A stretch of 64,000 nucleotides of DNA from Notolepis coatsorum (Eukaryota > Chordata > Actinopteri > Aulopiformes > Paralepididae), in NCBI GenBank assembly GCA_963971535.1, contig OZ020591.1, positions 12,362,577-12,426,576 of the forward strand, given 5' to 3'. Shown here piece after piece: positions 1 to 61,738 of the stretch (position 1 is the first letter of the stretch; the number at the start of each line of letters is the position of its first letter). The notes beneath the pieces were generated by a model that ran no database searches, had not been told where the DNA came from, and saw only the letters and a list, made by a program, of their open reading frames with translations. The translations under genes were made by a program, and so were the position numbers.

Positions 1-170
1 CCAGGGCACAGCGGTCTGGAAGCCCCCCCCCCCCCCCCCCCCTCCTACAGACACCTACCCAGGGCACAGCGGCCTGGAAGCCCCCCCCCCCCCCCTCCTA
101 CAGACACCTACCCAGGGCACAGCGGTCTGGAAGCCCACCCCCCCCCCCCCCCCCTCCTACAGACACCTAC
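1..170 (-). repeat. Tandem copies of the exon 171-386 end and splice donor
   Basis: Reading the minus strand downstream of the exon ending at 171, the last 12 exon bases followed by the donor GTAGGTGTCTGTAGGAGG are repeated at 112-170, 59-111 and 1-58, spacing 53-59 bp. Each copy carries a G/C homopolymer of variable length (for example the C-run at 22-42). Each copy also has a short CTTCCAG before its pseudo-exon bases, so it resembles a tiny exon with both splice sites. The array runs off the left edge of the window, so its true size is unknown. Confidence 0.85.
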
Positions 171-386
171 CCAGGGCACAGCTGAGGGCGGCGGCCTTGC
201 GCAGGCCGTCCAGACTCAGACAGATGGTGTCTCTCTCCCTCTGGCTCTGCTCCTTCACGCCCTCCGCTCCCAGGATGAAGGCCAGGCCCTTGGAGCTGCC
301 GGCCATGCGGCCCGTCAGCGGGGTGGACAACACGTCCATCAGGTTCTTCCACACGCCTGTCAGGATGTAGCGGGAGAACACGGCAC
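171..386 (-). CDS. arfgef3: arfgef3 exon (most 3' in window)
   Basis: This 216-bp exon encodes 72 codons in phase 1-1. It includes SRYILTGVWKNLMDVLSTPL, the block TGRMAGSSKGLAFILGAEGV and ends with ...LSCALG. These correspond to the human ARFGEF3 segment ending LSCALGVAAN. The acceptor is CCAG at 387-390, preceded by a CA/TG microsatellite (391-412). The donor is GTAGGT at 165-170. Reading into the intron gives a stop five codons past the junction. The donor and the last 12 exon bases are duplicated at least three times immediately downstream (1-170). Confidence 0.93.
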
Positions 387-390
387 CTGG

Positions 391-426
391 AACACACACA
401 CACACACACACACGTAAACACACACG
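391..426. repeat. (CA)n microsatellite at the exon acceptor
   Basis: A run of CA dinucleotides lies directly upstream (in the gene sense) of the exon 171-386 acceptor. On the minus strand it is (TG)n and so forms an unusual GT-rich tract before the CCAG acceptor. Confidence 0.8.
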
Positions 427-534
427 TGTCGTGAGATCCCACAAATGAATGGGAAATGCACTTGCCGTCGTCTCTAGACAAGAAGATAGATGGCAATTTC
501 CTGGCAGATACGGACCAGCTAGCCGGAGTTTTAA

Positions 535-1058
535 GCTAGGCTAGTGGTCTGAATCCGCTGAGCTAGGCTAGTGGTCTGAATCCGCTGAGCTAGGCTAGTG
601 GTCTGAATCCGCTGAGCTAGGCTAGTGGTCTGAATCCGCTGAGCTAGGCTAGTGGTCTGAATCCGCTGAGCTAGGCTAGTGGTCTGAATCCGCTGAGCTA
701 GGCTAGTGGTCTGAATCCGCTGAGCTAGGCTAGTGGTCTGAATCCGCTGAGCTAGGCTAGTGGTCTGAATCCGCTGAGCTAGGCTAGTGGTCTGAATCCG
801 CTGAGCTAGGCTAGTGGTCTGAATCCGCTGAGCTAGGCTAGTGGTCTGAATCCGCTGAGCTAGGCTAGTGGTCTGAATCCGCTGAGCTAGGCTAGTGGTC
901 TGAATCCGCTGAGCTAGGCTAGTGGTCTGAATCCGCTGAGCTAGGCTAGTGGTCTGAATCCGCTGAGCTAGGCTAGTGGTCTGAATCCGCTGAGCTAGGC
1001 TAGTGGTCTGAATCCGCTGAGCTAGGCTAGTGGTCTGAATCCGCTGAGCTAGGCTAGC
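535..1058. repeat. 27-bp minisatellite, about 19 copies
   Basis: The unit GCTAGGCTAGTGGTCTGAAT plus CCGCTGA repeats head to tail about 19 times with virtually no variation, so the array has been homogenised recently. It lies in the arfgef3 intron between exons 2205-2312 and 171-386. I found no similarity to a neighbouring exon, unlike the arrays at 1-170, 32098-32941 and 59293-59613. The surrounding 427-534 and 1059-1432 hold no recognisable gene, only short TG runs. Confidence 0.95.
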
Positions 1059-1432
1059 TTGCAGCCGGATAGCTTTCTACTGTACGCACAGAGAGGAAAT
1101 TGGTATCCATCTTCTTGTCTGACTCTGGAGAAGACAAAAAGTGTTGTGTGTGTGTGTGTAGATAGTATTATTTTGTATTATTGTGTATGTAAGACACAAA
1201 TAATACATTATTGTGTAATGTATGTGTGTGGGTTTTTATAGTTGAAACGTATAAGTTCAGTCTAGTGTTTTTGATTTAATGTTCCGCTGTCATCCTCTAA
1301 CAGAATAATCACCTCTTTTGTCATTGTCAGCTATTTGTGCGAGTGTGAGTTGAATAAATTGGTTATTTTTGTGATACAAAAGCCTCTCCTTCCTTTGAGT
1401 TACTGTAAATCTCCACGCGGGGTTCCCATTAA

Positions 1433-1589
1433 CCCTTTCGCTGCCACACGACAGAAGGTTAACCCTTTACTATCACCGACTGTCGGTTGTGTGGGTTAAC
1501 CTGCTGTTGTGTGGCAGTGAAAAGGTTAACCTTCTGTGAATTGTCTCAGTGAAAGGGTTAACCGTTTTGGTAGTGCGGCAGTGAAAGGG
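1433..1589. mobile_element. piggyBac-type palindromic MITE
   Basis: TTAA at 1429-1432 and 1590-1593 bracket an element whose ends read CCCTTTC(G/A)CTGCCACACG and the inverse GGCAGTGAAAGGG. Internal TTAACCCTTTACTATCAC and TTAACCTTCTG segments are inverted copies of the same motif, so the whole element is a nested palindrome. TTAA target duplication and CCCTTT-type ends are the hallmark of piggyBac-derived MITEs. Related copies lie at 33637, 42393, 43149, 60749 and 63776. Confidence 0.8.
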
Positions 1590-1593
1590 TTAA

Positions 1594-2204
1594 AGTTAAA
1601 CTGCAAGACTGTCCTTCACATCATCACATTGTAGTGGGTGCTATGGACATAATTCACCATTGTATTGTTTTGATGTATTGATGGGGCACTGTCACTTTAA
1701 GGAGGTTGGTTTTGGGGTTGGGCTTAGAGAAGACGCGCTGGTGGGATGTCATTGATCAAATGTTTGGTTACTACGAGCTGTCAGAGGCTAGCACGGCATA
1801 GATCCGACAGCTGTCACTTGTGCTATAAATGTAATAAATGACACACAGCTTTGTGTTGTCGCAAGATAGAAATTGTGCGTTTCTCCTTTCCGACGATTTC
1901 TACGACATCATAATAACAAAGCCATGTCTGCTTTCCTACAGCTCACCTGCAAGGTGTTAAGTGGGGGAGGGGTTAGGTATATTGCAATGGTCCCTGGGTC
2001 CAGCATGCATCGTTAACAGAAACAAGCTCCAAGCTCATCATAAATCATCATGGTTCATAAGACATAGATTTGAAAAGTATCCGCTGTGATGGCTTATTTT
2101 GAAGGTATGCACTTGTACTTTCATATCATGTAAACACATATAATAATTTCTAATCATCCAAACTGCACCACTCAAAACGTCAGCGGTGCCAGCGAGGTGC
2201 TGAC
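1594..2204. other. Intron without recognised features
   Basis: This is unique-looking intronic sequence between the MITE and exon 2205-2312. I see no exon, RNA gene or repeat in it. Confidence 0.6.
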
Positions 2205-2312: not shown

Positions 2313-2315
<3 letters not shown>

Positions 2316-2396
<81 letters not shown>

Positions 2397-12055: not shown

Positions 12056-12774
12056 TACTAACCAGGCTCCCTGTGGGAGGTGGTAGTTGTACTAACCAGG
12101 CTGACTGTGGGAGGTGGTAGTTGTACTAACCAGGCTGATTATGGGAGGTGGTAGTTGTACTAACCAGGCTGACTATGGGAGGTGGTAGTTGTACTAACCA
12201 GGCTGACTATGGGAGGTGGTAGTTGTACTAACCAGGCTGATTATGGGAGGTGGTAGTTGTACTAACCAGGCTGACTGTGGGAGGTGGTAGTTGTACTAAC
12301 CAGGCTGACTGTGGGAGGTGGTAGTTGTACTAACCAGGCTGATTATGGGAGGTGGTAGTTGTACTAACCAGGTTGACTGTGGGAGGTGGTAGTTGTACTA
12401 ACCAGGCTGACTATGGGAGGTGGTAGTTGTACTAACCAGGCTGACTGTGGGAGGTGGTAGTTGTACTAACCAGGCTGACTATGGGAGGTGGTAGTTGTAC
12501 TAACCAGGCTGATTATGGGAGGTGGTAGTTGTACTAACCAGGCTGACTGTGGGAGGTGGTAGTTGTACTAACCAGGCTGATTATGGGAGGTGGTAGTTGT
12601 ACTAACCAGGCTGACTGTGGGAGGTGGTAGTTGTACTAACCAGGCTGACTGTGGGAGGTGGTAGTTGTACTAACCAGGCTGACTGTGGGAGGTGGTAGTT
12701 GTACTAACCAGGCTGACTGTGGGAGGTGGTAGTTGTACTAACCAGGCTGACTATGGGAGGTGGTAGTTGTACTA
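12056..12774 (-). repeat. 34-bp minisatellite from arfgef3 splice donor (distal block)
   Basis: About 21 units of 34 bp. On the minus strand a unit reads ACCACCTCCCATAGTCAGCC then TGGTTAGTAC. It is the end of exon 32942-33111 plus its GTTAGTAC donor, with an internal 13-bp deletion compared with the 47-bp units next to that exon. The array was originally continuous with 32098-32941. The retrovirus now separates the two parts by 19.3 kb. Confidence 0.92.
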
Positions 12775-12789
12775 TGCCATATATGTATA
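12775..12789 (+). repeat. Residual tip of the outer 5' LTR
   Basis: TGCCATATATGTATA matches the first bases of the LTRs at 17578 and 30599. It then switches to env sequence within a shared AAATCC/GAATCC stretch, so a microhomology deletion probably removed the rest of this LTR together with gag, pol and most of env of the first unit. Confidence 0.6.
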
Positions 12790-13068
12790 AAATCCAGAAC
12801 CACTGGATCAAACGTGTGCAACTATAAAAATGACCAATCCATTTTTGTATCCGTTAAGTGAGCAGACATTTGCGGTTGCAGATAGTTATTGGATGTGTGC
12901 GGACAATATTCTGCGAAATGAACTTCCACCACGATGGGTAGGCATGTGTGCCCTGTTAAGACTAAAAATGTATGTAGTCTTAATGTATGAAGGAGTGAGT
13001 GAGATGATTCAAGTGGATGAAGCTTTAAATAAGCTTGATAGAACAAGGAGAGGCCTGTGGTCTCCTGG

Positions 13069-15196
13069 GCCCTCATTCATCAACCTGACTTACGCACAGA
13101 TATGTGCTTAACCTGTGCGTACGACCATTTCTAAGCAAAGAGTGGGATTCATCAATTTCAACTTGAACTTAACTTCGTGCTTATGTGTACGCACAGCTCG
13201 GAGCACACTTAGCTGACGCCCAGTGGTAGAATATGGGGACTGCAGACGGACGGCATAGATCAGTTGCATGCATTAGTTTCAACGCGGGAATAGGCTTGAC
13301 TGACGTGTTCTGTATGACCCCCGTAATTCATTATAGTTCATTGTGAAATAGCGATATTAGTGTAATTATTGTCAAACCCTAAATAGCATGTGGAATAGGT
13401 CTTTCTCTCCGAATGAATGCAGGTTTATATATATAGCGTTATCGGGTGCAGTGACTGCGCTCGCAGGAACCGTTTTCAGAGATAGCATCAGATAGGGATG
13501 AATGAATGAATGAGGGGCAGTCTAATTGCAGAGAGAACATAATATTAACTAGAGTCCACTACCCGAGACACCTCCTTCATTTGTACCGCAATTTGGGACC
13601 CAGATTGGAGCTATGAGCTTAAAAGCTTTTCCGTGCTTATTTGAGAAGGTCCAGCTGCAGAGCCGGAGAGACAGACAGCAGAGAGACACACAGTGTGTGT
13701 GTGTGACCACTAGTCTCCTAGTAGAGACCCCCCCCCCCCCCCCTCTGGACCACCTCCCAGTAGAGACCCCCCCCCCTCTGGACCACCTCCTAGTAGAGAC
13801 AAGTTTTCTGAAATGTATGTTTATATATGCAAATGAGGCACTTCCCCATTAAATATGTGGACATTTATGGATGCAATAAGGCAAAATGAAGTAAAATGAA
13901 CAACTAAATGTGTGTTATTGATGTTTTATTGTCACTAGTTTCATAGAAGACATGTTTAGGAAGCAAAATATAACAAAATCTCAAAATCAACAAAAAAAGT
14001 ATATTTGCCTATTCACCTGCAGTGTCTCGCCTTAATCCTCAGCTTCGTCTTCTTCCTAGAGAAGTCTTCACTAGGAGGTGGTCCAGAGGGGGGGGGGGGC
14101 TGAGTCTCTACTATTAGACTAGTAGTCACACACACGCACGCACACACACACACACACAGTGGAACAGTGTCTGTCTGTCTGTCTGTCTCTCTGCTGTCTG
14201 TCTCTCTGCTGTCTCTCTCAAAATAGTATAAGTGCTATCTTGGCCCTGAGAGTTGCTCTCCGGCTCTGCAGCTGGACCTTCTCAAATCAGCACGAAAAAA
14301 GCTATAAGCTTATAAAACGATTTAATATGCTAAACTTCGTTTTAAATTCCTTAATTCACTTTTGTTTATTTCATAAAGATTTTCCCGACATAATGCTACT
14401 TTCCCCGACCAGATCCGTGACTCTGTTGCGATACAGATGAATTATCTACTCAGAAAGCTTATAAAACTATTTAATATGCTAAACTTTGTTTTTAAATTCT
14501 TTAATTCACTTTTGTTTATTTCATAAGGATTTTCCCGACATAATGCTACCTGCCCCGACCAGATCCGTGACTCTGTTGCGATACAGATGAATGATCTACT
14601 CAGAATAGTATTATAAAGTGGCTATCTTTTATGCTGTAGATCACTGCTGGTATGTCCATGCAGAACCTTTATTTCAGCGGGGACTGTAGTATTTATTTGA
14701 CGTTACTGTACAATATATGTGTATTAAAAGACGGAGCTGTCTTTTATTGTATTATAATAATTATTAATATTAAAAATAAATTAAGAAAGGCATTCTTATT
14801 CCAGCATGCATTAATGACACTAACGGGCAACGGCAAAACAGTGGTTAATGGTCTTTATTAGTGTTTGCGGTGTCCAGGCAGCAATGGTCTTTTAGGAAGT
14901 TAATAGATATAATATCCGACAGTGTACAACACCCTCGGTTTAGTCCATTCTTCCACATTTCATGGGGGTGCCCATTACCGTATATGGTTAATCGGGGCGG
15001 TTTTGGTATGCAAATACGTGAAAGTGTGCACGAGCCTCGCCGCAGGGCCAAGGTGATATTTATCATGACAGGTGTGCGTAGAACCTGCGTACGCACGTGT
15101 GGTAAATCCCGTTTTTTTTGTGCGTGCACTGATTCTAAATTCTGTGCTTACGTGTGGAAATAGAACATTTTCTACGCCACGTTGATGAATGAGGGC
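13069..15196. mobile_element. 2.1-kb inverted-repeat DNA transposon in env
   Basis: The ends GCCCTCATTCATCAAC and its inverse, and a CCTGG duplication at 13064-13068 and 15197-15201, mark an exact insertion: the downstream env copy has the site once. Subterminal TGCGTACG motifs occur at both ends. Inside lies a second inverted repeat around GAGAAGGTCCAGCTGCAGAG (13645-13800 and 14030-14290) and a direct duplication of about 155 bp (about 14298-14455 and 14456-14607). No transposase is recognisable. The superfamily is uncertain because a 5-bp duplication does not single one out. Confidence 0.8.
13724..13797. repeat. C-run tandem GTAGAGACCCCCC repeats
   Basis: Three to four copies of CTAGTAGAGACCCCCCCTCTGG with variable C-runs lie inside the transposon, in one arm of its internal inverted repeat. 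An inverted counterpart with a G-run is at 14070-14100. Confidence 0.75.
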
Positions 15197-15861
15197 CCTG
15201 GAGTAACAGATGGGGTTGTGTTGAATGAAATTAATCAGCCCACTGGCATTCCAAAGGAGTTCAGGGCCTAAAATGTAGTAGAAGCAGGGTTAGCCTCCAT
15301 CTTTCCATGGATAACAATTAACACAAACGTTAATTGGATTAACTACCTATATTTTAATCAACAAAAATATATGAACTATACACATGCTGCATTCACGGCC
15401 ATAGGTCAGCAATTACAAGTATAATGACTTGGCAGAATAGACAGGTGTTGAATTGGTTGATGGCGGCCCAGGGCGGAGTCTGTAGCATGTTCGATAAATT
15501 TAGTTGTACTTATATTCCAAACAATACCGCAGCCGATGGAAGTTTTGCTGTTGTTATGGAAAAATTGGCAAAACTGAAAACTGAGCTCAAGGTGAACGCT
15601 GGCAGTGATGATCTTTCATGGGATTGGCTAGAGCTAAATTTAGGGAAATGGGGTGCCATTTTAGCCAAGATAGCAGTATCTGTGGTAGTGGTACTAATTG
15701 TAATCTTCTTGTTGGCATGTTACATTGGACCCTGTGTGACGAGATGGTGTCGAAGGACAATGGACAGACGAATGGACATCGAAATTGGCATACAAGGAGC
15801 AATGATGATGAATGGACAAGGTGTACAGCCATCAGCCCCGTATCTGGATCCAGGATACTAG

Positions 15862-17577
15862 GAAGGACTGACGCAGGAAGAACGAGAAGGGAACAGATGG
15901 GAAACAGGTTGAACACTAATGTGGGACAATGTTACTGTTGAATAAAAATGGGAAATGGGGAGATGATGTGTAAGTACACAGGAAAAGGGACGCAAGGGGT
16001 CCTGAACAATCACAGTTGTGTGCACTATTACTTAGCAATATTATCAAGATGTTTTCAACATATAAAAGAAAAAGCTTTTAGATGGTAGGTTGGTTTTTGC
16101 AAATATACAAGAAAAAGCTTCATATAGTAATCTGCAATATAACAATAATATCTGTTTTAACACTTTGGTTGCCTTGGGTTAAATTCATGATATACCATAG
16201 GTTGCCGGCTTTATTTGTCTATGGAGAAGTACCCCTTCTTTGCATGGCTATAACTTTTTAAATTCTATTGCTATATTGCCATTATTAGGGCCCATTCAAA
16301 GTCCTATATGTATTGTTCATTGTGTAGCAACGTTAAACTTTTTCATTCACATATTCATAGTAAAGTATGGTCTAATGTATAAGTATGTTTTCATCTCTTT
16401 CTGCAGCTTTCTCCAGAACGTGATCTATAGCCCCAAATGCATTATATTGATGATGCAATACAGTTTTATGGCAATCAGCGCGATATAAAAGATTCCAACT
16501 AGACGTACTTCTAGAAGTTACTACACGTCATCTGATGTTGACCGGATGGGCTAGGGGGCGTTTATAATTCCGTGGGCAGCGTTATACCAATCATCTAATG
16601 TGGGTCAAATGTTGATAATAGCAGTTAGTATCGAAGACGGTAACGTTACACGCTGAAACTCACCCCAGTCTCCGTGCGCCGTTGGGCGATCATCGTAGAG
16701 TAGAAGTCTTATCATTATGGGATGTAAATTTACCCGGTCCATCTCCAGCTTGTATAATGGTATATACGTCCAAATCATGTTGTTTATCGAGTTATTGGCA
16801 ATCGATCACTGTGTAGCGTGATGAGCCAGAGTCCCGGGACCTATAGCGAGTGCCCGGAAGTACTACGGACGTCTAGCACAACCTCTATGGCACATCCTGT
16901 TAAGCGATTGCGCCGATCGGCCACCAGATGGCGCTCCTGAACCGCCAGAGAGCTCAGTGGGTCCTGCTGGTGGATCTCAGGCCAGCGGAGGGGACATATG
17001 AATCCGATCGCAGATTTTTGAAATATTGATATAAGGACGCTGTACAGCGTCCTCCGGCAACTTGAGCATGGCCAGCAATGGCGTCTAAACACGTTTTATG
17101 GCAGTCAAAGTGTTAATAGTAAGATGTTGGTGATGAATAAGTTACAAATAAGGAATGGATTTACTAGTTGTCTATGCTTTGAAAAGGTTCAATTTGTGCA
17201 TGCTGATGGTTCACAAAAAACAACAATGAAACACAGCATTTCAGGTGTCACTGAGGAAGACACTGGGGCACAAGCTTTTCCTGTAACAAAATCTGCGGTA
17301 TCAGGTTTTTCCTCTTGCTAATGGAGTGTTTCATTAATGAAAATGTATTGTATAACCAAGGTATATCTGAGGTACATCTTGCATGTTAGTACATTAGTAC
17401 TGAGTAAAGTGTTATGTTTATACTCATTCATTTAGTCATGTGAAGTATTATTACATATGAATCACTAGTACACAAATATCATTAGTACATATATGTACAT
17501 CTAGTACATGACAAAATCACGGATAAGTAGTACTTATTCATGGCAATGCCATGAAAGGGAGGATTGTGGTGGCAGAA
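15862..17577 (+). other. ERV 3' region of the upstream copy (with MITE)
   Basis: From the env stop to the LTR. It aligns with 29823-30598 of the downstream copy once the piggyBac-like element 16161-17112 is removed. A possible polypurine tract GAAAGGGAGGAT lies at 17553-17564, just before the LTR. A short frame at 17124-17321 corresponds to the second half of the frame at 30051-30326. Confidence 0.75.
16161..17112. mobile_element. piggyBac-like MITE in ERV 3' region
   Basis: It begins CACTTTGGTTGCC and ends with GGCAGTCAAAGTG, flanked by TTAA at 16157-16160 and 17113-17116. The other ERV copy has a single TTAA at this place (near 30118), which proves insertion. The 952-bp interior is related, in inverted orientation, to parts of the element at 50861-52652. 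No transposase ORF is present. Confidence 0.92.
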
Positions 17578-18207
17578 TGCCATATATGTATACCAAAATC
17601 CTATATAAAATAGGTTACACACTTATGATTACAGGTCATTACAAAACACATATGGGTTTGATGAAAATGACCATTTGTCAGGTTCCAAGTTGTAATATAT
17701 GTAAGCATAATTACAGCTGGATAAAACAGACTTCTGAATTTGAGGAATAATAAGACAAAAACACATCACATGTGCAGACACTCAGTTTTGGGACAAACCG
17801 TGTCAGAGCTAAAAGACATAAGGGGCCATAAGGAGAACAAGGGATATTTCCAGTGTTCCCCTGTTCACCCACAACACTAGAAGATTGGGAAAGACTAAAG
17901 TCTGTGACCTCGGCCAAGTGGCCTGAAATGAACTCACAGACTCTAGTGCAACAATAGACTGGTGAAGACAGCATACGTGGTAGAAAAGATTGCCAAAATC
18001 ATACGCAGTTAGAAAATGAAAGATTTGGCAAAAACAGAACTATTAACACACACAAATATACACCAAAAATACATTGGTATTCTGGGTACCGAACCACACA
18101 CACACACACAAAAACAGATATATACACATAGGAACTACACACCCACCAGAGCTCGACCAATAAGAAACACACCCACCTAGATTGCAACATGTCATGTGAT
18201 GAAAAAG

Positions 18208-18213
18208 TATAAA
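18208..18213 (+). promoter_or_regulatory. LTR TATA box
   Basis: TATAAA in GAAAAAGTATAAAGGTGACA, about 60 bases before the AATAAA signal, placing the transcription start near 18235. The same box is kept in the 3' LTR at 31924-31929. Confidence 0.7.
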
Positions 18214-18271
18214 GGTGACAGAGTGAGATGACGATGTTAGGATTTTGTTGGATTTTATTGTTAACTCACTG

Positions 18272-18277
18272 AATAAA
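18272..18277 (+). terminator. LTR polyadenylation signal
   Basis: AATAAA in the presumed R region. The equivalent in the 3' LTR is 31988-31993. Confidence 0.7.
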
Positions 18278-18383
18278 AACAGTTTCCTCAAACCGCGGAG
18301 ATTCCGATCTGAACACAGCTGCCTGGTGTCTTCATTTTCTGATTTATTCTATATTACACAAAGTCAGAGAATTCCACTACAAT

Positions 18384-18401
18384 TGGCGCCCAACGACTGG
18401 A
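18384..18401 (+). promoter_or_regulatory. Retroviral primer-binding site, Lys-tRNA-like
   Basis: TGGCGCCCAACGACTGGA starts two bases after the LTR end. The first 12 bases match the 3' end of tRNA-Lys as used by Lys1,2-primed retroviruses; the rest differs. A primer from a related fish tRNA is possible. Confidence 0.75.
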
Positions 18402-19780
18402 AAAGATATTGGGGGTCCGGTCTTCGGGGACCTGTACAGCAGTTCTGCCGGCAGAGAAGGTGAGGAATTTGTATTTCTCTTTATATTAGGATTTTACTGC
18501 TGGCTGGGTCTCTGAGGCTGAGCGCTCATTCTTCAAAAAGAACCTAAAAAGTTAAGGCACCCAGGGCCGTGGTTCAGATCGGATGATGTTAATTTTTCTT
18601 TCTTTTCTTTAAAAGGCTGTTCAAGTCGACTAACAGTGTATTCTGTTCTTATGATCTGTGATAAAACTGCTTTTTGAGTCAGTAGGTCAATACGAACAAG
18701 GTTTTGGTAAACAGAGAGTTACTCTGTGTAGGTGTTATGTAAACAAAGGTAACAGACGACTTTGGTTGTACATAGTGACAGAGGTAACGCCGACTCTGTG
18801 TGTTGTGTCACGTTGTTGTAATGATTAGGCTAGGCATGTGTTGTAATGATTAACACTGGTTACGCTGTTGTAATAATCAGGTTAGTCACGGTGTGCGATG
18901 ACTAGAATTTTCACGTGTTGCAATGTTTAGACAGTTTTAGACCAAGGGAGTGGCCCTGGGGTTTATTTTTAGTTGACATAGGTGACAGGGGTCTCGTGAC
19001 GAGAGGCTCTGTGCGTATGTATTTGTACTCAGAGGTACTTACAAGTACATCTGGGGTACGGTTTTTATTCTTTTTTCTTTTCTTTGCTTTCTTTCTTTTT
19101 TTTGAAAAAGTCTGGGCAAAGCACCAAGAAACATCTGGGTTTCATTTACTTTATATGGTGTGAAAGGACGTGCGTCATCTATTCTTTATTTATGTTGTGG
19201 AAGACAGAGTAGACTTCAGAGAGGTTTTGGAGTGGAATGAGAGAAAAAACTCAGAGCAGAGAGACAGTACCCAGGGGTGGAGCTATATGGCACACGAGGG
19301 TGGGGGCCGTGGTCTGTGACAAACGGGACGTTCTATTTATAGAAAAAGCACATACAGGCTTTTGAGAATGAACAAACAGTACCCAGTTTTTAACCACTAA
19401 ATACATTGTGATTCGTCTGAATTGAATAATCATTAATTTGTTGCGTTTCTTTTTCTTCCCTGTTAAACCGGACGGAGCAAACCAACCATGAAATGAGAGA
19501 GGATCAAACAGAGGAGATATTTTCAGAGGAGCAGGTCGTATGAGTGCAAATACATCAATGCTTCTCCCTCAGGATATCCTCTGTTTCATTACATGTGAAT
19601 AGGAGAAGAGACAACAAACAGCCACTTATCTAATATTTATTTTTTGGTTAGTATTTTCATTTAGTTTATAAATTACTTTGTTTTGTGAATTCAGAAGGTG
19701 ATTACTGGTTGGTTGTGGTACATTGAAAATAACTTAAATGCTGAGTAATAAACAAACTAAATAACTAATTAACTACTAAA
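18402..19780 (+). other. ERV leader region
   Basis: About 1.4 kb between the primer-binding site and the first gag-like frame. It has T-rich tracts and several short GTAATGATTA repeats (18815-18880). No coding similarity is visible. A splice donor for env would be expected here but I cannot point to one with confidence. Confidence 0.5.
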
Positions 19781-20143
19781 ATGAATATAACACCAGTCTG
19801 CGTAATTGCAAGCTTACATCCAGAAATAAAAGAAAGAATCCAGAAAATATCTATCAAATGGAAAAAGAGGACAAAGTCATTTGCCACGCACTGGCCAGAT
19901 CATGGGACATTTGATGTCAGCGCTTGTGATGACATGGACATTCGGATAAAAGATTACAAAGCGACGCAGAAAACGGTGAAACGCCAGAAAAAGAGAGAAG
20001 AAGAGTTAAAAATATTAGATATTAGAAAAACGCACAGAGAAGCCATCAGGGTTACGAATAATATTAACAAACAAATAGACAGACAAAACGGCAGGACTCT
20101 ACCCAGCTTTAACAGGGACGATAGCGATCAAAGGGAATTATGA
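19781..20143 (+). pseudogene. gag: ERV gag 5' part or leader protein (uncertain)
   Basis: A 120-codon frame, lysine- and arginine-rich, with a predicted helical charged region (about residues 55-85). It lies where a matrix protein would be expected but I see no diagnostic motif. It is in a different frame from the capsid part at 20518-21762, so a frameshift, or a separate small gene, lies between. Confidence 0.4.
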
Positions 20144-20517
20144 GTGGGAGGGGGAGGGTGTCGAGAATGCAGCTCCCCAAGGAGGGTCATCTCAAAATGC
20201 AGAATAAAGAGTAAGATTAATCAGTCTTGGGACGCCAGAACCCCAGCAGCGCGCACATGACAGAGGAGTGACATTTACAGCAGAAAATGCATCACCTGTG
20301 GTAACACATGGTAACTTAACACTACCACAAGCAAAACAGTGGGAGCCAGTACACTGCAGTACTGGAAGGAAAGAGAGAACAGTGCCAATTATGAGACCAG
20401 TATTGGATTGCTATGCCAAAAGACGAGAGACAAGGGGGGTCTCCACATCCCTACATCCCTCATACTGGATAGATCCTCAAAGAGAGACAACAAGAGAGGA
20501 TATTCAACAGCTGGAAC

Positions 20518-21762
20518 ATGACAGATGAACAATACAAGACCATGATTGATCAGGTCACACAAGAGGGTGGGGCAAGAGGGACAACAGAGGAGTCACCAAG
20601 GGAGGATAATCAACAGGGAGGAAGCAGGGAGGTAGAGGCAAACTTCGCTGTAACATCCAGACCAGTGTATCTTAGACGCACAACTAGGCCACCCGATAGA
20701 TACACAGATAAAGGGATGTATCCAATTTTGATAAAGGGCACAGAAGGCCATTATATCCCTTGGCAGACACTAGATCTTGCAGGGTTAATTGCTAAATTGC
20801 CTGACATCCATGAGGGTGCATCAAAATGGATCAGGGCATTTGAGGAAGAGACTATTGGCAGAATGTTAGCTATCAGGGACATAAAAGCAATTTGGGCAAA
20901 ACTTTGGGCGCATCCACTATGGAAAACATTCTCAAATATCACAGAAATGAATGGATGATAGACTATGTCCGATGGAACTGAGTTCAATGCATACCGAACG
21001 GAATTATGGCGGGCATTGAGAAATGAGTACCCCACGAGAATCGAGCCTAAATCTCTGAAAGGGGACGCGCTCAAAGAAACAGAAAACCCTGCGGCTTACA
21101 TAAACCGTTTGTTAAAACAGTGGAAACAAGAAACCGAGGAGGAAATTGAACACATTCCGGTACTAGAGACGTTTAGAAACTCTGTGATTGAAGCAATGCC
21201 ATTACCAGTACAGAATAAACTGGAGGATGTGGTTGCTCTCACTTCAAAGACCCATCGCAAATTCTGCCAGCACGTTTTTCACGCTGTTGAGAAACACAGA
21301 AAAGATGAAAAAAAGCAGAAAGACCAAGACTTAACCACCCAGCGTAAATTGATCCAGTTACAGATCAATGAGATTAATCAAAATAACAAAATGAAAATAC
21401 AAGCAACTGTCATGCCTGACATTATCCCTGCACCACCTACGCAACCACCTGTAGTTAATGTGTACCCACAACAAACCACACCACAATACGGTGGAATGAG
21501 ACAAAATGGTCGCCCAAACGGTCAGAGAAGCATTGATGAGGTTATATGCTATCGTTGCAATAAAACTGGGCACATATCCAGAAGCTGCAGAGCTACTGAC
21601 ACTGGGCCACGAGTTTGTTGGTTATGTAGAGACCCAGGTCACATGGCAAACGCCTGTCCAAAACAGATGGTTAATCGCAGTGGGGGCACAAGAGGGGGTT
21701 ATGGAGGAAATAGACAAAAAGGACCTGCCAATCCATGGGCAGGGCCAAACCATGGTTACTAG
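20518..21762 (+). pseudogene. gag: ERV gag capsid-nucleocapsid region, broken
   Basis: Two stretches in one frame (20518-20958 and 20965-21762) are separated by adjacent TGA and TAG codons. The second holds a capsid C-terminal domain resembling gammaretroviral CA (NPAAYINRLLKQW, residues about 46-58), a charged coiled segment, and a nucleocapsid with two zinc knuckles, CYRCNKTGHISRSC at residue about 195 and CWLCRDPGHMANAC at about 218, then a GGYGG-rich tail. The frame ends at TAG 21760-21762 and continues in the same frame into the protease. The double stop disables the protein. Confidence 0.88.
21760..21762 (+). promoter_or_regulatory. gag-pol UAG, readthrough-type junction
   Basis: A single TAG followed by GGG separates gag from the protease frame without a frame change, and no other stop occurs in the intervening 48 bases to the first pol ATG at 21811. 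Gamma- and epsilonretroviruses use stop-codon readthrough at this junction, unlike the frameshift of other genera. Confidence 0.7.
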
Positions 21763-22491
21763 GGGTGCCCAGAGAATCCTAAAGGGGGAGTTCAGTTTCC
21801 AATTGTAAGCATGGCAACTGATAAAGCGCCCATGTTGCAGGTGGAAATTGAAAACAAACCAGTTTCAATGTTGATTGACACAGGAGCAACATACACATGC
21901 GTCAGTCCAGAACATGCTAAGCATCTCCCCATGTCTGGTAAATACGTTAAGACAATAGGATTCTCGGGAGTAAGACAACTGCTACCAATAACAGCACCAG
22001 TTAGATTGGTGACACACAGAAAAGAGGCAATAGTAGTGTCTGATCAGACCCCAATCAATCTACTGGGACGAGATGCGTTATGTAAACTAAAGATTCAAAT
22101 TTGGTGTACTCCACAAGGTATTTACATAGATCAATCAGGGGTAGATACACAATTTGTTGTTCAATCAGACCAGGCAAAAGTTTACTGGCTGAGCGAGATA
22201 ACGGAGCCAATGACGAGAGCATATGACAGAAGGAAAGGATTCATACAAGCTCAAATTCCAAAAACAACAGTAACACAGCTTAAATATCACTGTACAATGT
22301 ACTATGATCAATCAGGAAGCACAGGATATGAAAAAGAGTGGGAGAGCAGAACAAAAGGTAAAAAAATCGATTTGAGGTCAATATATAATAATTGGAGATC
22401 AGGGAGCCGTGCTAAACATAGATTCAAAAAAACACTTTTATTACAGAATGGTATAATGTTCCTAAATCCAGGCCACATGTTACGCTATTAG
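21763..22491 (+). pseudogene. pro-pol: ERV protease and start of pol
   Basis: The aspartic protease core is clear: SMLIDTGATYTCV (active-site DTG) and, about 55 residues later, LLGRDALCKL (the second conserved G-R-D/N block). Beyond about residue 120 similarity fades into the linker before reverse transcriptase, and the frame ends at a stop at 22491. The next pol segment is in another frame. Confidence 0.85.
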
Positions 22492-22526
22492 TAAACATAA
22501 ACTTTGAATCTAAAGACATAGGACCT

Positions 22527-23252
22527 ATGATGAAAGGGGCAACACAGATTACGTGGGAGAAAACAGACAATCCATTGATTTTTATGTCACACGACAAGAC
22601 CATGATCAAAATCATGTGTGATGTGGAATTGACGAGTCAGCCTCAAACAATAATGATACCAGTAGAAATGATGACGCGGCAAACGTCAGATGAGGCCGAG
22701 AGGAAAAATCCACTTGTAAAAGACATGTTGTAACAGATCCCAGTTCAGTTGTGGTCGACCCATGACACAGATGTGGGAATGGTTAAATCTGCAAATCCAG
22801 TAAGAGTAGAACTGAAACCACACGTGAAGTTGCCAACTCGACCACAGTACCCGTTGAAGCGAGAAGCAGAGGAAGGCAGAAGCAAAACGATAGAGGGGTT
22901 AATAAGATCAGGAGTGTTAGTACAAACTGACAGCAGATGCAATACCCCGATCTTTCCAGTATTAAAAGCTGATAAATCTAAATACAAATTGGTTCACGAC
23001 CTGAGGGCTGTAAATGAAATTGTAGAAGACTGCCAAACAGATGTGCCAAACCCTCACACGATTTTGTCAAACATACCGGTTGACAGTAAATATTTCACTG
23101 TGATAGATTTATGCTCAGAATTCTTTAGCATTCCTCTAGATGAAGAATCACAATACCTGTTTGCATTCACGTATAGAGGAAGGAAGCTAACATATACGAG
23201 ATTACCTCAGGGATTCAAAAATAGTCCACAGGTTTTGAATCAAATAATATGA
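22527..23252 (+). pseudogene. pol: ERV reverse transcriptase, N-terminal part
   Basis: Two stretches in one frame (22527-22733, 22749-23252), separated by a stop. The second has LPTRPQYPLKREAEEG, LVHDLRAVN, FTVIDLCSEFFSIPL (first catalytic aspartate) and LPQGFKNSP, all retroviral RT landmarks of the gamma/epsilon type. A stop right after the LPQG block and a frame change separate it from the YADD half. Confidence 0.9.
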
Positions 23253-23262
23253 TCTTGAGGGT

Positions 23263-25670: not shown

Positions 25671-25782
25671 CAGGAAGGACCTTACACCGTGGTACGAGCA
25701 ATGCCGACTGCAGTCCAGGTCTGCAAGAAAGTTCGGACCACAAACAAGGACAGTACTGTGACAAAAGACAAAATTTTACAAA

Positions 25783-34139: not shown

Positions 34140-34172
<33 letters not shown>

Positions 34173-36931: not shown

Positions 36932-37088
36932 ACCTCAACTTCAAACCTGAAGCATCACCTCAACTTCAAGCCTGAAACATCACCTCAACTTCAAGCCTGA
37001 AGCATCACCTCAACTTCAAGCCTGAAACATCACCTCAACTTCAAGCCTGAAGCATCACCTCAACTTCAAGCCTGAAACATCACCTCAA
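36932..37088. repeat. 25-bp minisatellite, right block
   Basis: About six units of the same 25-bp repeat as at 35637-35874, resuming after the LINE copy. Confidence 0.93.
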
Positions 37089-38621: not shown

Positions 38622-38655
38622 CTGTGTAACAGAGTTAGTTAATATAAGAGTGGAG
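38622..38655 (-). promoter_or_regulatory. arfgef3 3' splice site and branch region
   Basis: On the gene strand this reads CTCTTATATTAACTAACTCT then GTTACACAG. TTAAC/CTAAC are branch-point candidates 14-20 bases from the AG. This 34-base segment is the apparent founder, or the last unit, of the 29-bp array upstream. Confidence 0.7.
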
Positions 38656-38936
38656 TAGGGCTGACCCCTATTAGTCGATTAGTCGACTAATCGGTCGAAA
38701 GGAGCCGTAGTCGACTAACCAACCTCTTAGTCGAATAGTAAAAAAAAATATATATATTTACAATATATATTTTTTTATCATTCTTTCCAAAAGAAAATAG
38801 GCCTAGAAGCGTGGCTAACGCTAATGGCACGCATACCAGAGGCTAACTGCATTTTTTTTGTCGACTAACGGCACATTTTGGCCAATCATAGTCGACCATC
38901 CAAATCCTTAGTCGGGGACAGCCCTAGAGTGGAGTA
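38656..38936. mobile_element. hAT MITE in the branch-point array
   Basis: TAGGGCTGACC and the inverse GGACAGCCCTA ends, with 8-bp duplication GAGTGGAG at 38648-38655 and 38937-38944, though the same octamer is part of the minisatellite unit. Subterminal TTAGTCGACTAA palindromes are typical of the family. Confidence 0.88.
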
Positions 38937-40630
38937 ACAGAGTTAGTTTGTATAAGAGTGGAGTAACAGAGTTAGTTAGTATAAGAGTGGAGTAACAGAG
39001 TTAGTTAGTATAAGAGTGGAGTAACAGAGTTAGTTAGTATAAGAGTGGAGTAACAGAGTTAGTTAGTATAAGAGTGGAGTAACAGAGTTAGTTAGTATAA
39101 GAGTGGAGTAACAGAGTTAGTTAGTATAAGAGTGGAGTAACAGAGTTAGTTAGTATAAGACTTGTGTAACAGAGTTAGTTAGTATAAGAGTGGAGTAACA
39201 GAGTTAGTTAGTATAAGAGTGGAGTAACAGAGTTAGTTAGTATAAGAGTGGAGTAACAGAGTTAGTTAGTATAAGAGTGGAGTAACAGAGTTAGTTAGTA
39301 TAAGAGTGGAGTAACAGAGTTAGTTAGTATAAGAGTGGAGTAACAGAGTTAGTTAGTATAAGAGTGGAGTAACAGTTAGTTAGTATAAGAGTGGAGTAAC
39401 AGTTAGTTAGTATAAGAGTGGAGTAACAGAGTTAGTTAGTATAAGAGTGGAGTAACAGAGTTAGTTAGTATAAGACTTGTGTAACAGAGTTAGTTAGTAT
39501 AAGAGTGGAGTAACAGAGTTAGTTAGTATAAGAGTGGAGTAACAGAGTTAGTTAGTATAAGAGTAGAGTAACAGAGTTAGTTAGTATAAGACTTGTGTAA
39601 CAGAGTTAGTTAGTATAAGAGTGGAGTAACAGAGTTAGTTAGTATAAGAGTGGTGTAACAGAGTTAGTTAGTATAAGACTTGTGTAACAGAGTTAGTTAG
39701 TATAAGAGTGGAGTAACAGAGTTAGTTAGTATAAGAGTGGAGTAACAGAGTTAGTTAGTATAAGAGTGGAGTAACAGAGTTAGTTAGTATAAGAGTGGAG
39801 TAACAGAGTTAGTTAGTATAAGAGTGGAGTAACAGAGTTAGTTAGTATAAGAGTGGAGTAACAGAGTTAGTTAGTATAAGAGTGGAGTAACAGAGTTAGT
39901 TAGTATAAGAGTGGAGTAACAGAGTTAGTTTGTATAAGAGTGGAGTAACAGAGTTAGTTAGTATAAGAGTGGTGTAACAGAGTTAGTTAGTATAAGACTT
40001 GTGTAACAGAGTTAGTTAGTATAAGAGTGGTGTAACAGAGTTAGTTAGTATAAGAGTGGAGTAACAGAGTTAGTTAGTATAAGAGTGGAGTAACAGAGTT
40101 AGTTTGTATAAGAGTGGAGTAACAGAGTTAGTTAGTATAAGAGTGGAGTAACAGAGTTAGTTTGTATAAGACTTGTGTAACAGAGTTAGTTAGTATAAGA
40201 GTGGTGTAACAGAGTTAGTTAGTATAAGAGTGGAGTAACAGAGTTAGTTAGTATAAGAGTGGTGTAACAGAGTTAGTTAGTATAAGAGTGGAGTAACAGA
40301 GTTAGTTAGTATAAGAGTGGTGTAACAGAGTTAGTTAGTATAAGAGTGGAGTAACAGAGTTAGTTAGTATAAGAGTGGAGTAACAGAGTTAGTTAGTATA
40401 AGAGTGGAGTAACAGAGTTAGTTAGTATAAGAGTGGAGTAACAGAGTTAGTTAGTATAAGAGTGGTGTAACAGAGTTAGTTAGTATAAGAGTGGTGTAAC
40501 AGAGTTAGTTAGTATAAGAGTGGAGTAACAGAGTTAGTTAGTATAAGAGTGGTGTAACAGAGTTAGTTAGTATAAGAGTGGAGTAACAGAGTTAGTTAGT
40601 ATAAGAGTGGTGTAACAGAGTTAGTTAATA
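38937..40630 (-). repeat. 29-bp branch-point/polypyrimidine minisatellite, about 58 copies
   Basis: On the gene strand a unit reads ACTAACTAACTCTGTTACTC then CACTCTTAT. It repeats the sequence just upstream of the acceptor at 38622. Each unit presents TACTAAC, the ideal branch-point sequence, followed by a pyrimidine tract. The common unit contains no AG dinucleotide; a minority variant with ACACAAG occurs about six times (near 39154, 39470, 39590, 39670, 39995, 40160). It fills most of a 2.05-kb intron. Confidence 0.93.
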
Positions 40631-54616: not shown

Positions 54617-55983
54617 ACCCTGCTATCAGAAGGTCTCATTGAGTCATGGTGTCCTACTCAATCAACCCTGCTATCAGAAGGTCTCATTGAGTCATGGTGT
54701 CCTACTCAATCAACCCTGCTAACAGAAGGTCTCATTGAGTCATGGTGTCCTACTCAATCAACCCTGCTATCAGAAGGTCTCATTGAGTCATGGTGTCCTA
54801 CTCAATCAACCCTGCTAACAGAAGGTCTCATTGAGTCATGGTGTCCTACTCAATCAACCCTGCTATCAGAAGGTCTCATTGAGTCATGGTGTCCTACTCA
54901 ATCAACCCTGCTATCAGAAGGTCTCATTGAGTCATGGTGTCCTACTCGATCAGCCCTGCTAACAGAAGGTCTCATTGAGTCATGGTGTCCTACTCAATCA
55001 ACCCTGCTATCAGAAGGTCTCATTGAGTCATGGTGTCCTACTCAATCAACCCTGCTATCAGAAGGTCTCATTGAGTCATGGTGTCCTACTCAATCAACCC
55101 TGCTATCAGAAGGTCTCATTGAGTCATGGTGTCCTACTCAATCAACCCTGCTATCAGAAGGTCTCATTGAGTCATGGTGTCCTACTCAATCAACCCTGCT
55201 ATCAGAAGGTCTCATTGAGTCATGGTGTCCTACTCAATCAACCCTGCTATCAGAAGGTCTCATTGAGTCATGGTGTCCTACTCAATCAACCCTGCTATCA
55301 GAAGGTCTCATTGAGTCATGGTGTCCTACTCAATCAACCCTGCTATCAGAAGGTCTCATTGAGTCATGGTGTCCTACTCAATCAACCCTGCTAACAGAAG
55401 GTCTCATTGAGTCATGGTGTCCTACTCAATCAACCCTGCTAACAGAAGGTCTCATTGAGTCATGGTGTCCTACTCAATCAACCCTGCTAACAGAAGGTCT
55501 CATTGAGTCATGGTGTCCTACTCAATCAACCCTGCTAACCAGTGGTGCGTTATTGAAATCATCTGGGGTGACACGCACCACGTGCACGCGCGCTCCTGGC
55601 GCGTGCGCGCGCTCCCGCGAATGCGCATTTAATGTCCCCTCGCTTGGGCACAGACTAAAGACAGTGCCTAATTGCCTCTACGAATGGAATGTAACACGTC
55701 TTCACAACAAGGTAGGTGTGAATGTGTCTGAGAACGTATTTAACACACCTGACGACCGGCGCTATTGATATGCAAATAGCGAGTGAGCTTGCACTCCGTG
55801 CTACCCCGTCCCATGAACAACGCATGCCTGCTGCTAACAGAAGGTCTCATTGAGTCATGGTGTCCTACTCAATCAACCCTGCTAACAGAAGGTCTCATCG
55901 AGTCATGGTGTCCTACTCAATCAACCCTGCTATTAGAAGGTCTCATTGAGTCATGGTGTCCTACTCAATCAACCCTGCTAACA
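54617..55983. repeat. 48-bp minisatellite, about 22 copies
   Basis: The unit is CTGCTATCAGAAGGTCTCAT, TGAGTCATGGTGTCCTACTC plus AATCAACC, with a T/A variant (CTATCAG or CTAACAG). 48 is divisible by three, so a 16-residue repeat stays open over hundreds of codons on the plus strand. About 19 copies lie left of a hAT MITE (55540-55830) and three right of it. No relation to an arfgef3 exon seen. Confidence 0.94.
55540..55830. mobile_element. hAT-type MITE in the 48-bp minisatellite
   Basis: Perfect 8-bp duplication CTGCTAAC at 55532-55539 and 55831-55838, though part of the repeat unit. Ends CAGTGGTGCGTT and inverse AACGCATGCCTG. The interior is GC-rich near the left end (CACGTGCACGCGCGCTCC), unlike its surroundings. 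Confidence 0.85.
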
Positions 55984-56128
55984 GTGAAAGCCCTGGGTCT
56001 TCTCTTTCTTAGGACTAAAACGATTTCATGACGGTGTCATTTCCTCGTGTCTAAATCATCCGGTTTCCGGTGCAATGCGCTGAGATTTCTATAAACTCAT
56101 ATTTAGCTACTGTAATAACACTTAAAAT
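55984..56128. repeat. Interspersed repeat family, left part
   Basis: TGAAAGCCCTGGGTCTTCTC onward matches 49865-49982, and after the hAT element below the family continues as at 52657-52790 and 60592-60748. Confidence 0.75.
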
Positions 56129-59034: not shown

Positions 59035-59292
59035 GTTTCTAGAGCTTATTTGCTTTAACCACAAACAAATACAAAAAGGTTAATGTTTCACACTCATCAG
59101 TGCCACAGGGTTATGCATATTATACGTACAGGGCACAGCATATTATTGCGCTATTGCTGTGAGGAATTGTATCTGTGCTTATATCGGCAGATAATATTTC
59201 AATATTTCATGCCAAGGACCCCGAAACATAAGCGTTTGGCCAAAGGACCTCAGCTTTGAGTAAAATGCAAATGAATAACTAAAGAGATCTTG

Positions 59293-59613
59293 CATTACCA
59301 TAATGAGGTCAGCGAAACCTCTGCACAGGTGCATTGTGGGCGGAGCATTACCATATGAGGTCAGCGAAACCTCTGCACAGGTGCATTGTGGGCGGAGCAT
59401 TACCATAATGAGGTCAGCGAAACATCTGCACAGGTGCATTGTGGGCGGAGCATTACCATATGAGGTCAGCGAAACCTCTGCACAGGTGCATTGTGGGCGG
59501 AGCATTACCATATGAGGTCAGCGAAACCTCTGCACGGGTGCATTGTGGGCGGAGCATTACCATTATGAGATCAGCGAAACCTCTGCACAGGTGCATTGTG
59601 GGCGGAGCATTAC
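59293..59613 (-). repeat. 52/53-bp tandem copies of exon end and splice donor
   Basis: Six copies start at 59293, 59346, 59398, 59451, 59503 and 59555, following the true junction at 59608-59614. Each contains the last 45 bases of exon 59614-59718 (including MHLCRGFADLI codons) plus 7 intron bases GTAATGC. Three of the six (59346, 59451, 59503) have exactly the same donor context as the exon, ATATG/GTAATG. Confidence 0.95.
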
Positions 59614-59718
59614 CATATGAGGTCAGCGAAACCTCTGCACAGGTGCATTGTGGGCGGACAGCTGCTAAGCATGGAGAGGATGCACTCGAGATAGAGAAGC
59701 TGGAGGAGCTGGTTATCA
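59614..59718 (-). CDS. arfgef3: arfgef3 exon
   Basis: A 105-bp exon, phase 2 to 2, encoding DNQLLQLLYLECILSMLSSC, then PPTMHLCRGFADLIW with the last codon split. Human: QLQLLYLECILSVLSSSSSS and MHLHRRFTDLIWKNLCP. The acceptor is CTACTCCAG. The donor is ATATG/GTAATG; if it is skipped the next in-frame codon is TAA. The 3' half of the exon has been copied six times into the intron. Confidence 0.96.

Positions 59719-59727: not shown

Positions 59728-59730
<3 letters not shown>

Positions 59731-59780
<50 letters not shown>
59731..59780. repeat. (CA)n microsatellite
   Basis: About 24 CA units just upstream (in the gene sense) of the acceptor of exon 59614-59718, so (TG)n on the gene strand. Confidence 0.95.
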
Positions 59781-59784
<4 letters not shown>

Positions 59785-60591
59785 AGTGCAAGGTAGGAAA
59801 GCTAGAGCTAACTAAACTAAAAGACACATTGTATTGTGATTGAGTCAACTGCATGAAAATAAAAATGTTGAATTTAAAAGGACTATACTGTTGTCACTAT
59901 ACTGGTGATCAAACCTTCCTTATATGTATCTCCTGGTTGTGTTAACAAACATGTTGCCTCTTGTCAGAGATCGAAGCTGGCATTGGACCACAAGGGAGCA
60001 ACGGACAGCTTGTGGTCATGAACAAGGAAGTAGAGAGAGGGAGGGGGGCGGGATTTAATTGAGAGAGAGGGGGGGGGGAGATATAATTTAATCTAACTTA
60101 ATTGAGAGAGAGTGAGGGAGAGAGAGAGAGAGAGAAGGGGGAGAGGTAGAGAGAAAGACTAAGGCCCAATCCCAATTTGCTTCCCTTGGCCCTACCCCTC
60201 GTTTGAGTGAAATTGTAATTCTGCTTCAATGCATACAATTCAATAATTGCTTTTCTTAGTCCAGTTAGATTACTTTCTGAATTCCGTTTCTGATTCTTTC
60301 AATCTTTATTTCATCTTGAAGGATCATCATTTACAATGATGTTGAGAGGTACAGTACATGTAGAAACAGAAAAGTCAATACATTTAACTATTTAAATGAG
60401 TTAAAACAACTACAGCCTGAGGTGAAATGGTGGGCTGTTATAGATTTAAACTGACCAATGGAATTTTAATTTGAAAGTGCATGTAAGGGCAAAACATTCA
60501 ACGTGTCAGGGGCACAGACACTAAAAGCAGATTTTCCTAATTCAGTGCAAACTCTGGGCACATTAACCTGTTAAGCCATATTTTCAGAAAA
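59781..60591. other. Intron, GA-rich then unremarkable
   Basis: A GAGAGAGGGG-rich stretch at 60040-60150. No gene or clear repeat. Confidence 0.5.
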
Positions 60592-60748
60592 GTGCGAAAC
60601 AAACGTAGTGCTGAAAATATATACTGCTGTTTTGATAGGGTTAGGGTCTTTACTCTTGGCTACATATTTGAAAAAGAAATGGACTGTATTGATCTATTTG
60701 TGTCACGTGAAATAAATCTCTGCCCGGGACCGGGCCAATCGGGCTTAA
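60592..60748. repeat. Interspersed repeat family fragment
   Basis: Third copy of the family described at 56736-56915. It ends in GGGCCAATCGGGCTTAA, where the piggyBac-type MITE begins. Confidence 0.75.
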
Positions 60749-60906
60749 CCCTTTCACTGCCTCGCTACCAAAACGGTTAACCCTTTCACTGCCACACACA
60801 ACAGCCGGTTAACCCTTTCACTGCCACACGGCAGAAGGTTAACCCTTTACTATCACACAAGTGTGATAGTAAAGGGTTAACCTTCTGTCGTGTGGCAGTG
60901 AAAGGG
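60749..60906. mobile_element. piggyBac-type palindromic MITE
   Basis: TTAA at 60745-60748 and 60907-60910. Four CCCTTTCACTGCC-type half units form a hairpin centred on TATCACACAAGTGTGATA near 60862. Confidence 0.85.
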
Positions 60907-60985
60907 TTAAGACTAAGAGGTTAAGCGTAAGCCAATCACCAATAATGGCTTCACACAGAAAAAGATGCCAGTCTCATATCCCTAC

Positions 60986-61576
60986 TAGGGATGTCCCGAT
61001 CCGATCACGTGATCGGAATCGGGGGCCGATCACGTGATTTTCAGAAGATCGAGATAAAAAAAAAAAAACAGGATTTAAAAAAAATAATAATTTAAAACTT
61101 TAAAAAAAAAAAATCAACAAACATGACCATGTTCACGTCTTAAACTCATACTGAGGCCTTAGTTTTGGTTTTAAATTGCATATCATTCATTTATTATTAG
61201 AATTTTGCCAAAACAAATGCATTTCCTTTGATTTAATTATACATCAAATGATTTATGTCAAGGATGAGGGACATCCACTAGTTGCAGAACTTGCAGTCAC
61301 CTGATTTTTACAGATGGCGCCATTGCTCTCATGAAGCAGCAGGTTGGAGGCGGAATTTTTAGATTACTCCGGTTGCAATGCCTCGCTTGAATGAAGTTAA
61401 CTTTTCACCTGGATAACGTCAACTTTCAGGGTGAATGTAATGTGAGAAATTGGGATAAAAAAGTATAATCTTTTTTTTTATAGATATTTTTTTTTATCGG
61501 ATCGGGAAAGATCGGTATCGGTAGATACTCAAAATCACATGATCGGGAGCAAAAAAATTTGATCGGGACATCCCTA
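60986..61576. mobile_element. hAT MITE, relative of 56129
   Basis: TAGGGATGTCCCGATCC and inverse GATCGGGACATCCCTA ends with the same interior as 56129-56735. No clean 8-bp duplication: ATCCCTAC precedes and CTCATGAT follows. Confidence 0.85.
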
Positions 61577-61653
61577 CTCATGATGGATAAGAAGTAAAAC
61601 GTTGAACAGAACAGAGTGGCTGTGGAGGACGAGACAGGATGGAGCGGTGTTAC

Positions 61654-61738
61654 CTGTCCACGGACTCCAGCTTCTCACAGAACACGGTCAGCACCGTCAC
61701 CACGTCCTCACACATGGACCGGCTGGTGGGAGACACGT
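61654..61738 (-). CDS. arfgef3: arfgef3 exon (most 5' in window)
   Basis: An 85-bp exon, phase 1 to 2, encoding VSPTSRSMCEDVVTVLTVFC and EKLESVD. Human has STVESLCDDVVSVLTVLCEK at about residue 210. The acceptor is TTTCAG next to a (TG)n run, the donor GTAACA. Upstream exons lie beyond the window. Confidence 0.92.

Follow-up and report, generated by a model that had tools for sequence, protein, structure and literature searches.

We analyzed a stretch of 64,000 nucleotides from the genome of the fish Notolepis coatsorum (C23:12362577-12426576, called the window below), in which the gene ARFGEF3 carries several minisatellites built from its own splice sites. The assembly comprises 3.42 Gb, and the whole analysis rests on this one assembly. 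Twelve minus-strand exons in the window give an open frame of 801 amino acids when spliced, and the introns between them are all of the GT-AG type (11 of 11). Used as a query, the spliced protein matched brefeldin A-inhibited guanine nucleotide-exchange protein 3 (ARFGEF3) from many teleosts, with Centroberyx affinis and a Polymixia at the top (best 120 of 523 proteins). The spliced protein aligned over its full length with ten teleost ARFGEF3 proteins, chosen among the matches listed, at 80-87% identity; the version used in that alignment still included 22 residues from a false exon. Single-exon searches of Pfam and PDB gave nothing useful. With 200 kb of fetched flank added, we resolved 34 introns that span most of the gene. 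This set leaves out the first intron, two protein stretches (P0002 residues 1288-1364 and 1782-1851) and the unread runs of N in that flank (200, 5000, 200 and 2500 bases); the acceptor at -16983 was positioned by hand. Coordinates are window positions, and negative ones lie in the fetched flank beyond window position 1. Window positions 43400-54100 were covered by program scans and not by eye.

Three donor junctions in the window (59613, 32941 and 170) have been copied in tandem, each with exonic bases and the GT donor, forming the arrays D1, D2 and D3 (Table 1). D1 comprises seven copies counting the exon's own end, which makes six decoy donors. The D2 unit shortens further from the exon, from 47 bp to 34 bp, by loss of 13 exonic nucleotides. 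We considered the distal part of D2 (12784-12056) as a separate array beside another exon and rejected this, because it shares its units and its intron with the proximal part and a proviral block lies between the two. D3 continues past the window end to -385 in the fetched flank. Read directly, the sequence shared at the copy boundaries amounts to 0 nt in D1, 2 nt in D2 and 3 nt in D3. The coding frame is intact only with the exon-adjacent splice site. Use of a decoy donor would add an in-frame stop in all cases (6 of 6 in D1, in the correct phase, 20 of 20 in proximal D2 and 10 of 10 in D3), and thus production of the protein would require splicing at the exon-proximal site.

The proviral block resembles a tandem provirus truncated on one side, as judged from labels given by eye. 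Part of 12791-18381 matches 28878-32097 at 95-98% and is followed by a longer block of retroviral-type open frames, on the strand opposite to the gene.

The fourth array, A1, is built from units of the branch and 3' splice-site region, each with a TACTAAC-like motif and without a single exonic base. The interior motifs are 54 TACTAAC and four TACAAAC, and both edge units have TATTAAC. The last unit, beyond an insertion with inverted-repeat ends, ends in the real acceptor. We infer an intron of 62 nt before expansion. The first-pass annotation had reported three donor arrays and one acceptor/branch array in a single gene, all derived from segments at exon boundaries. The analysis confirms that the four arrays are real and junction-derived: three straddle the boundary and one, A1, abuts it.

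Table 1. Arrays, exons and insertions in and around the window (a slash in a sequence marks the exon boundary)
Feature	Position	Strand	Description
ARFGEF3 exon	59614..59718	-	donor ATG/GTAATGCT; from spliced frame and orthologue alignment
Donor array D1	59292..59658	-	unit 52-53 bp = 45 exonic + 7 intronic nt
48-bp arrays	54617..55984		within an intron, 117 bp from an acceptor at the closest; not junction-derived
Array A1	38926..40627	-	29 bp x 58.8; fills intron 40669-38622
Insertion in last A1 units	~38655..38925		inverted-repeat ends; like hAT or a miniature inverted-repeat transposable element, by eye only
ARFGEF3 exon	38035..38621	-	acceptor TTACACAG/GCA, the edge of the last, diverged A1 unit
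25-bp array	35627..37089		intronic; not junction-derived
ARFGEF3 exon	32942..33111	-	donor CTG/GTTAGTAC
Donor array D2, exon-proximal part	32098..32982	-	47-bp units = 39 exonic + 8 intronic nt
Proviral block within D2	12785..32097	+	19.3 kb; genes named by eye from their open frames
Donor array D2, distal part	12056..12784	-	34-bp units past the proviral block
27-bp array	534..1057		27 bp x 19.4, 100% identical; intronic, 147 bp from nearest boundary; not junction-derived
ARFGEF3 exon	171..386	-	donor TGG/GTAGGTGT
Donor array D3	1..182	-	50-59 bp units; ~12 exonic nt, donor, G tract
Donor array	donor 92003		72 bp x 16; only CAG common to exon
Donor array	donor -2806		28-bp unit, 8 exonic nt; within CA-rich DNA
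Donor array	donor -14336		22 exonic nt recopied among GT repeats; some copies partial
Array-filled intron	-29476..-29753		nearly all 44-bp array
Acceptor array	acceptor -75404		81 bp x 5.6; 26 exonic nt

In another reading the arrays were selected, with repeated donors or branch points aiding the recognition of weak sites or regulating splicing. The examined slice of A1 holds 59 TACTAAC-like motifs, and the real donors of D1, D2 and D3 score low (1.7, 2.4 and 2.1) on a rough, approximate matrix. On the same matrix, however, the decoys printed for D1-D3 have scores equal to that of the real donor, and splicing at them would introduce the stops described above. We consider selection of this kind very unlikely.

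The fetched flanks contain five further junction-linked arrays, which brings the total to 9 of the 34 resolved introns. Seven of the arrays recopy a splice site, six of them at donors, and the share of exonic sequence in these seven is 45, 39, 12, 8, 22, 26 and 3 nt. Two short introns consist almost entirely of array; their units are copies of the branch and 3' splice-site region, and their lengths before expansion would have been 62 and 60 nt. An 84-nt intron of the gene carries no array. By TRF limits alone A1 (distance 42) and the array at donor -14336 (distance 143) touch no boundary, and both were assigned by reading.

The units of the straddling arrays are copies of unspliced genomic junction DNA. 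This bears on a templated origin, in which spliced RNA or complementary DNA would have been copied back by reverse transcription or by RNA-templated repair at the exon edge. Such an origin accounts for the location of the arrays and for nothing else: the straddling units carry intron contiguous with exon sequence, and none of the 34 exon-exon junction 24-mers was copied within 3 mismatches on the sense strand of the 264 kb in total. We give it next to no credence. The first-pass annotation had offered repair seeded by spliced RNA as one cause and replication slippage restarting at junctions as another. The first is disfavoured by the absence of exon-exon copies, and the second because the unit edges do not coincide with the junctions. 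R-loops, also named there, may play a part if they form on unspliced RNA.

To ask whether arrays lie at junctions more often than expected, we used Tandem Repeats Finder (TRF; period 20-120, at least 2.8 copies, 80% match), which found 37 loci in the gene region. Excluding four low-complexity loci (among them the junction array at -2806), two loci of the dispersed GTTAACC family and three second halves of split arrays left 28 core arrays. Six of these 28 touch a boundary, against 0.96 expected when whole arrays were placed again (P 0.001, 3000 simulations) and 0.50 when only the seed unit was placed (none of 3000 simulations reached 6). A comparison with shuffled positions, as suggested earlier, therefore puts boundary contact in this gene above a uniform spread over the introns.

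We also measured the rate at which positions found local arrays. In this measure of our own, 24-mers serve as probes, each array is counted once, and low-complexity probes, including one of the 68 junctions, are skipped. Junctions founded arrays in 6 of 67 cases compared with 0.91% of all intron positions, an excess of about 10-fold (P 3.6e-5); the P values of this test and of the placement test presume that boundaries are independent, and where the window loci are concerned they are post hoc. Four alternative settings gave 5/67, 5/66, 6/67 and 5/66 (P 0.0003-0.0027 against all intron). Array founders become more frequent toward exons, from 0.91% over all intron to 2.75% in near-exon intron DNA, by which we mean intron positions 40-300 bp away from a boundary. 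Beyond the window, founders make up 3 of 43 junctions, with P 0.007 against all intron and 0.11 against near-exon DNA. Under the alternative settings the corresponding values (2 or 3 of 42-43) are P 0.052-0.07 and 0.24-0.37.

Simple coverage by repeats points in the opposite direction: it reaches 13-21% for intron positions, 9% for junctions and 0.5% for positions inside exons. We rejected raw coverage as a fair null, under which junctions would look depleted, and used founder-equivalent fractions instead, because long arrays count many times and their copies are later additions. Raw coverage does show how array-rich these introns are. The donor strength of array units was tried as an annotation-free test and had no outcome, as there were too few arrays.

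As an independent sample we took myosin genes of the same genome, in which a Pfam myosin-head search marked 145 exon places. The sample comprises 17 stretches (80.2 kb; 69 exons scored of 70 listed) and 8 stretches (13.7 kb; 8 exons). All belong to one protein family, and exon edges were set by the best nearby splice score. Local copies were found at 2 of 97 scorable edges (88 + 9; of 154 edges), which is no excess of junctions in this sample over the local founder rate of 1.33% (P 0.37). The type of array seen in ARFGEF3 does recur there and is not private to that gene. The two edges with local copies are donors in two myosin genes. In L033 (C45, 471-1061), a clear donor mirage, the exon end ATCATGGAG/GTAAGA lies in a 25-bp unit with 23.6 copies by TRF. 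In L036 the donor GTGAGTACAGAGAC is repeated in a 37-bp unit with 7.6 copies, and the script chose the second donor copy as the exon edge. In L024 a 23-bp array extends into the acceptor. An ATGG-rich microsatellite at L026:560-800 (C4) appears to grow from a similar exon end, ATCATGGAG/GTAGGGATCATGGATGG.

Near-perfect arrays are difficult to assemble, which could suggest an artefact of the assembly. We regard this as highly improbable: the units vary by substitutions and by the 13-bp deletion, the edge units of A1 are distinct, D2 and A1 are interrupted by insertions, and the same type of array is present in other genes.

Our preferred explanation is ordinary tandem duplication in a minisatellite-rich genome, acting on once-short introns and tolerated by splicing, with no junction-specific device required (probability roughly 0.68). 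Tandem duplications with breakpoints anywhere would have struck introns that were once very short (~60 nt where readable), and many of them would therefore have spanned or abutted a junction. In an intron of about 60 nt, most tandem duplications of 40-50 bp would have to do so. Copies that span a junction would persist, with the outer, exon-proximal site staying in use and the copies turning into intron. Slippage or unequal exchange may then have amplified the copies, in a genome that makes minisatellites freely. The scattered exonic shares of the seven splice-site-recopying arrays indicate that the breakpoints are scattered, and unit edges that lie off the junctions argue, together with the absence of exon-exon copies, against duplication primed exactly at junctions and against spliced-RNA templates.

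Tolerance of copies that leave the exon unharmed had already been proposed for these arrays, and this part fits the data. The accompanying prediction, that arrays always lie on the intron side and leave the exon intact, is no test, as it follows from geometry. Any tandem copy of an exon end with its donor leaves an intact outer exon end if the outer donor is used, so an intact exon beside an intron-side array is no evidence for a selected direction of growth.

Several points weigh against ordinary duplication. Junction founders (6/67) still exceed near-exon intron DNA about 3-fold (P 0.010), and under the four alternative settings the comparison with near-exon DNA gives P 0.031-0.05. The myosin sample is small. 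The lengths before expansion were inferred for two introns only.

Alternatively, tandem duplication could have genuine hot spots at splice junctions; co-transcriptional R-loops, nascent RNA bound by U1, and conflict between replication and transcription at exon edges are examples of possible causes. The roughly 10-fold excess over the intron average, the 9 of 34 introns affected and the preference for donors (6 of 7) would fit such hot spots. However, the excess shrinks to about 3-fold against near-exon DNA and is not significant there outside the window, the myosins are without excess, and the breakpoints do not lie at the junction. We therefore think hot spots unlikely. A broader form of the idea, that junctions and above all donors found arrays in this genome by some process linked to nascent transcripts still unspliced, and that introns thereby grow by exon-end copying across many genes, seems to us improbable to a similar degree. 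The same figures (about 3-fold; 3/43, P 0.11; 2/97, P 0.37) leave the earlier statement that the four arrays are unlikely to be independent accidents without support. The excess over near-exon DNA rests partly on the window loci that prompted the idea. A special mechanism shared by the arrays is possible but weakly supported, and the evidence does not need it.

The 27-bp, 48-bp and 25-bp arrays of the window are intronic and not junction-derived. We considered the 27-bp array at 1057-534 as a fifth junction array in the window and rejected it, because the supposed exon beside it (1124-1059) is present in 0 of 112 parsed ARFGEF3 proteins (120 listed). That stretch is exon-like and frame-compatible but its 3' edge has no GT donor. 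An interspersed element of ~1 kb interrupts the 25-bp array at 35627-37089; other elements interrupt D2 and A1, and arrays may be frequent insertion sites. CT-rich microsatellites form the polypyrimidine tracts directly at two acceptors, and a GAGAGG-rich tract begins ~5 bp past a donor (window 2315-2669, 33114-33196 and 34082-34437). A dispersed repeat of 29-32 bp around GTTAACCCTTTCACTACCACACT occurs at many places (window 1493-1593, 42389-42472, 60745-60860 and 63775-63896; flank -27693 to -29210), once as an array of 52 copies. Reverse-transcriptase-like open frames, recognized by eye, lie in introns at 5044-8112, 8999-10774, 36412-36954 and 44579-45034, with the final part of the 8999-10774 frame repeated by that at 36412-36954.

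In amphioxus, the name mirages has been given to tandem repeats lying across an exon-intron boundary, with Adh3, the globins BflGb6 and BflGb9, and PGBD5 as examples (PMC3087553; PMC3902484). They are described at 5' and 3' boundaries, with undisturbed splicing, unstable length and edge units that escape homogenisation (PMC3087553; PMC3902484), and with units of 10-160 bp (PMC3087553). Judged from sequence, the straddling arrays would be mirage-type minisatellites and so of a known kind, and D1-D3 have the anatomical features. Boundary-spanning units occur in D1, D2 and D3, at donors -2806 and -14336, at acceptor -75404 (outside the window) and in myosin L033, so that both boundary types are represented, and unit lengths of 25-81 bp fall inside the reported range. 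The intact coding frame and the agreement with orthologues are what bears on undisturbed splicing here. Distinct edge units were observed in A1 only, which is of a neighbouring type and not a strict mirage, since it abuts its junction and does not span it. Troponin C is reportedly another amphioxus mirage. As far as the amphioxus accounts go, both systems consist of minisatellite copies of intron-exon boundaries, 5' and 3', with AG/GT signals in many units. Unlike them, the present case is in a teleost, where a single gene has as many as nine junction-linked arrays, with up to ~59 copies, and two short introns are filled entirely.

Other systems share some of these features. Tandem repeats with 5' and 3' splice signals are described for introns of teleost major histocompatibility complex class II B genes (a CCAGGT hexamer and the decamer GTCCAGTTGA; PMC4394517), whereas those units are of 6-10 bp and lie inside introns, not being long copies of exon ends. 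In human paralogues, internal tandem repeats with units of ~30 bp also lengthen exons or introns, but half lie in coding sequence, they belong to segmental duplications, and the accessible part of the source does not describe them as exon-end copies (PMC2812944). The Rogers model of intron gain, as outlined in PMC3087553, likewise has a tandem duplication, of an AGGT segment, that spans splice-like signals. In ARFGEF3, by contrast, the introns were already present, and the copies lengthen and do not create them. The potato RNA-dependent RNA polymerase is said to be a case in which tandem duplication produced an intron. Minisatellites in introns of fish genes have been published before (PMC3045353). 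For junction minisatellites with long exon ends, searches of an open-access library, which lacks most subscription papers, turned up no teleost report.

The number of junction arrays is striking for one vertebrate gene. The arrays show intron growth through the copying of exon ends, and the donor arrays, with several to ~20 near-identical sites, constitute a natural test of 5' splice-site choice among equals, in which proximity to the exon should win. Comparing founders at junctions with those in the adjacent intron would provide a sharp genome-wide test of junctions as duplication hot spots. If the excess seen in ARFGEF3 were general, it would indicate a source of tandem repeats linked to splicing or transcription.

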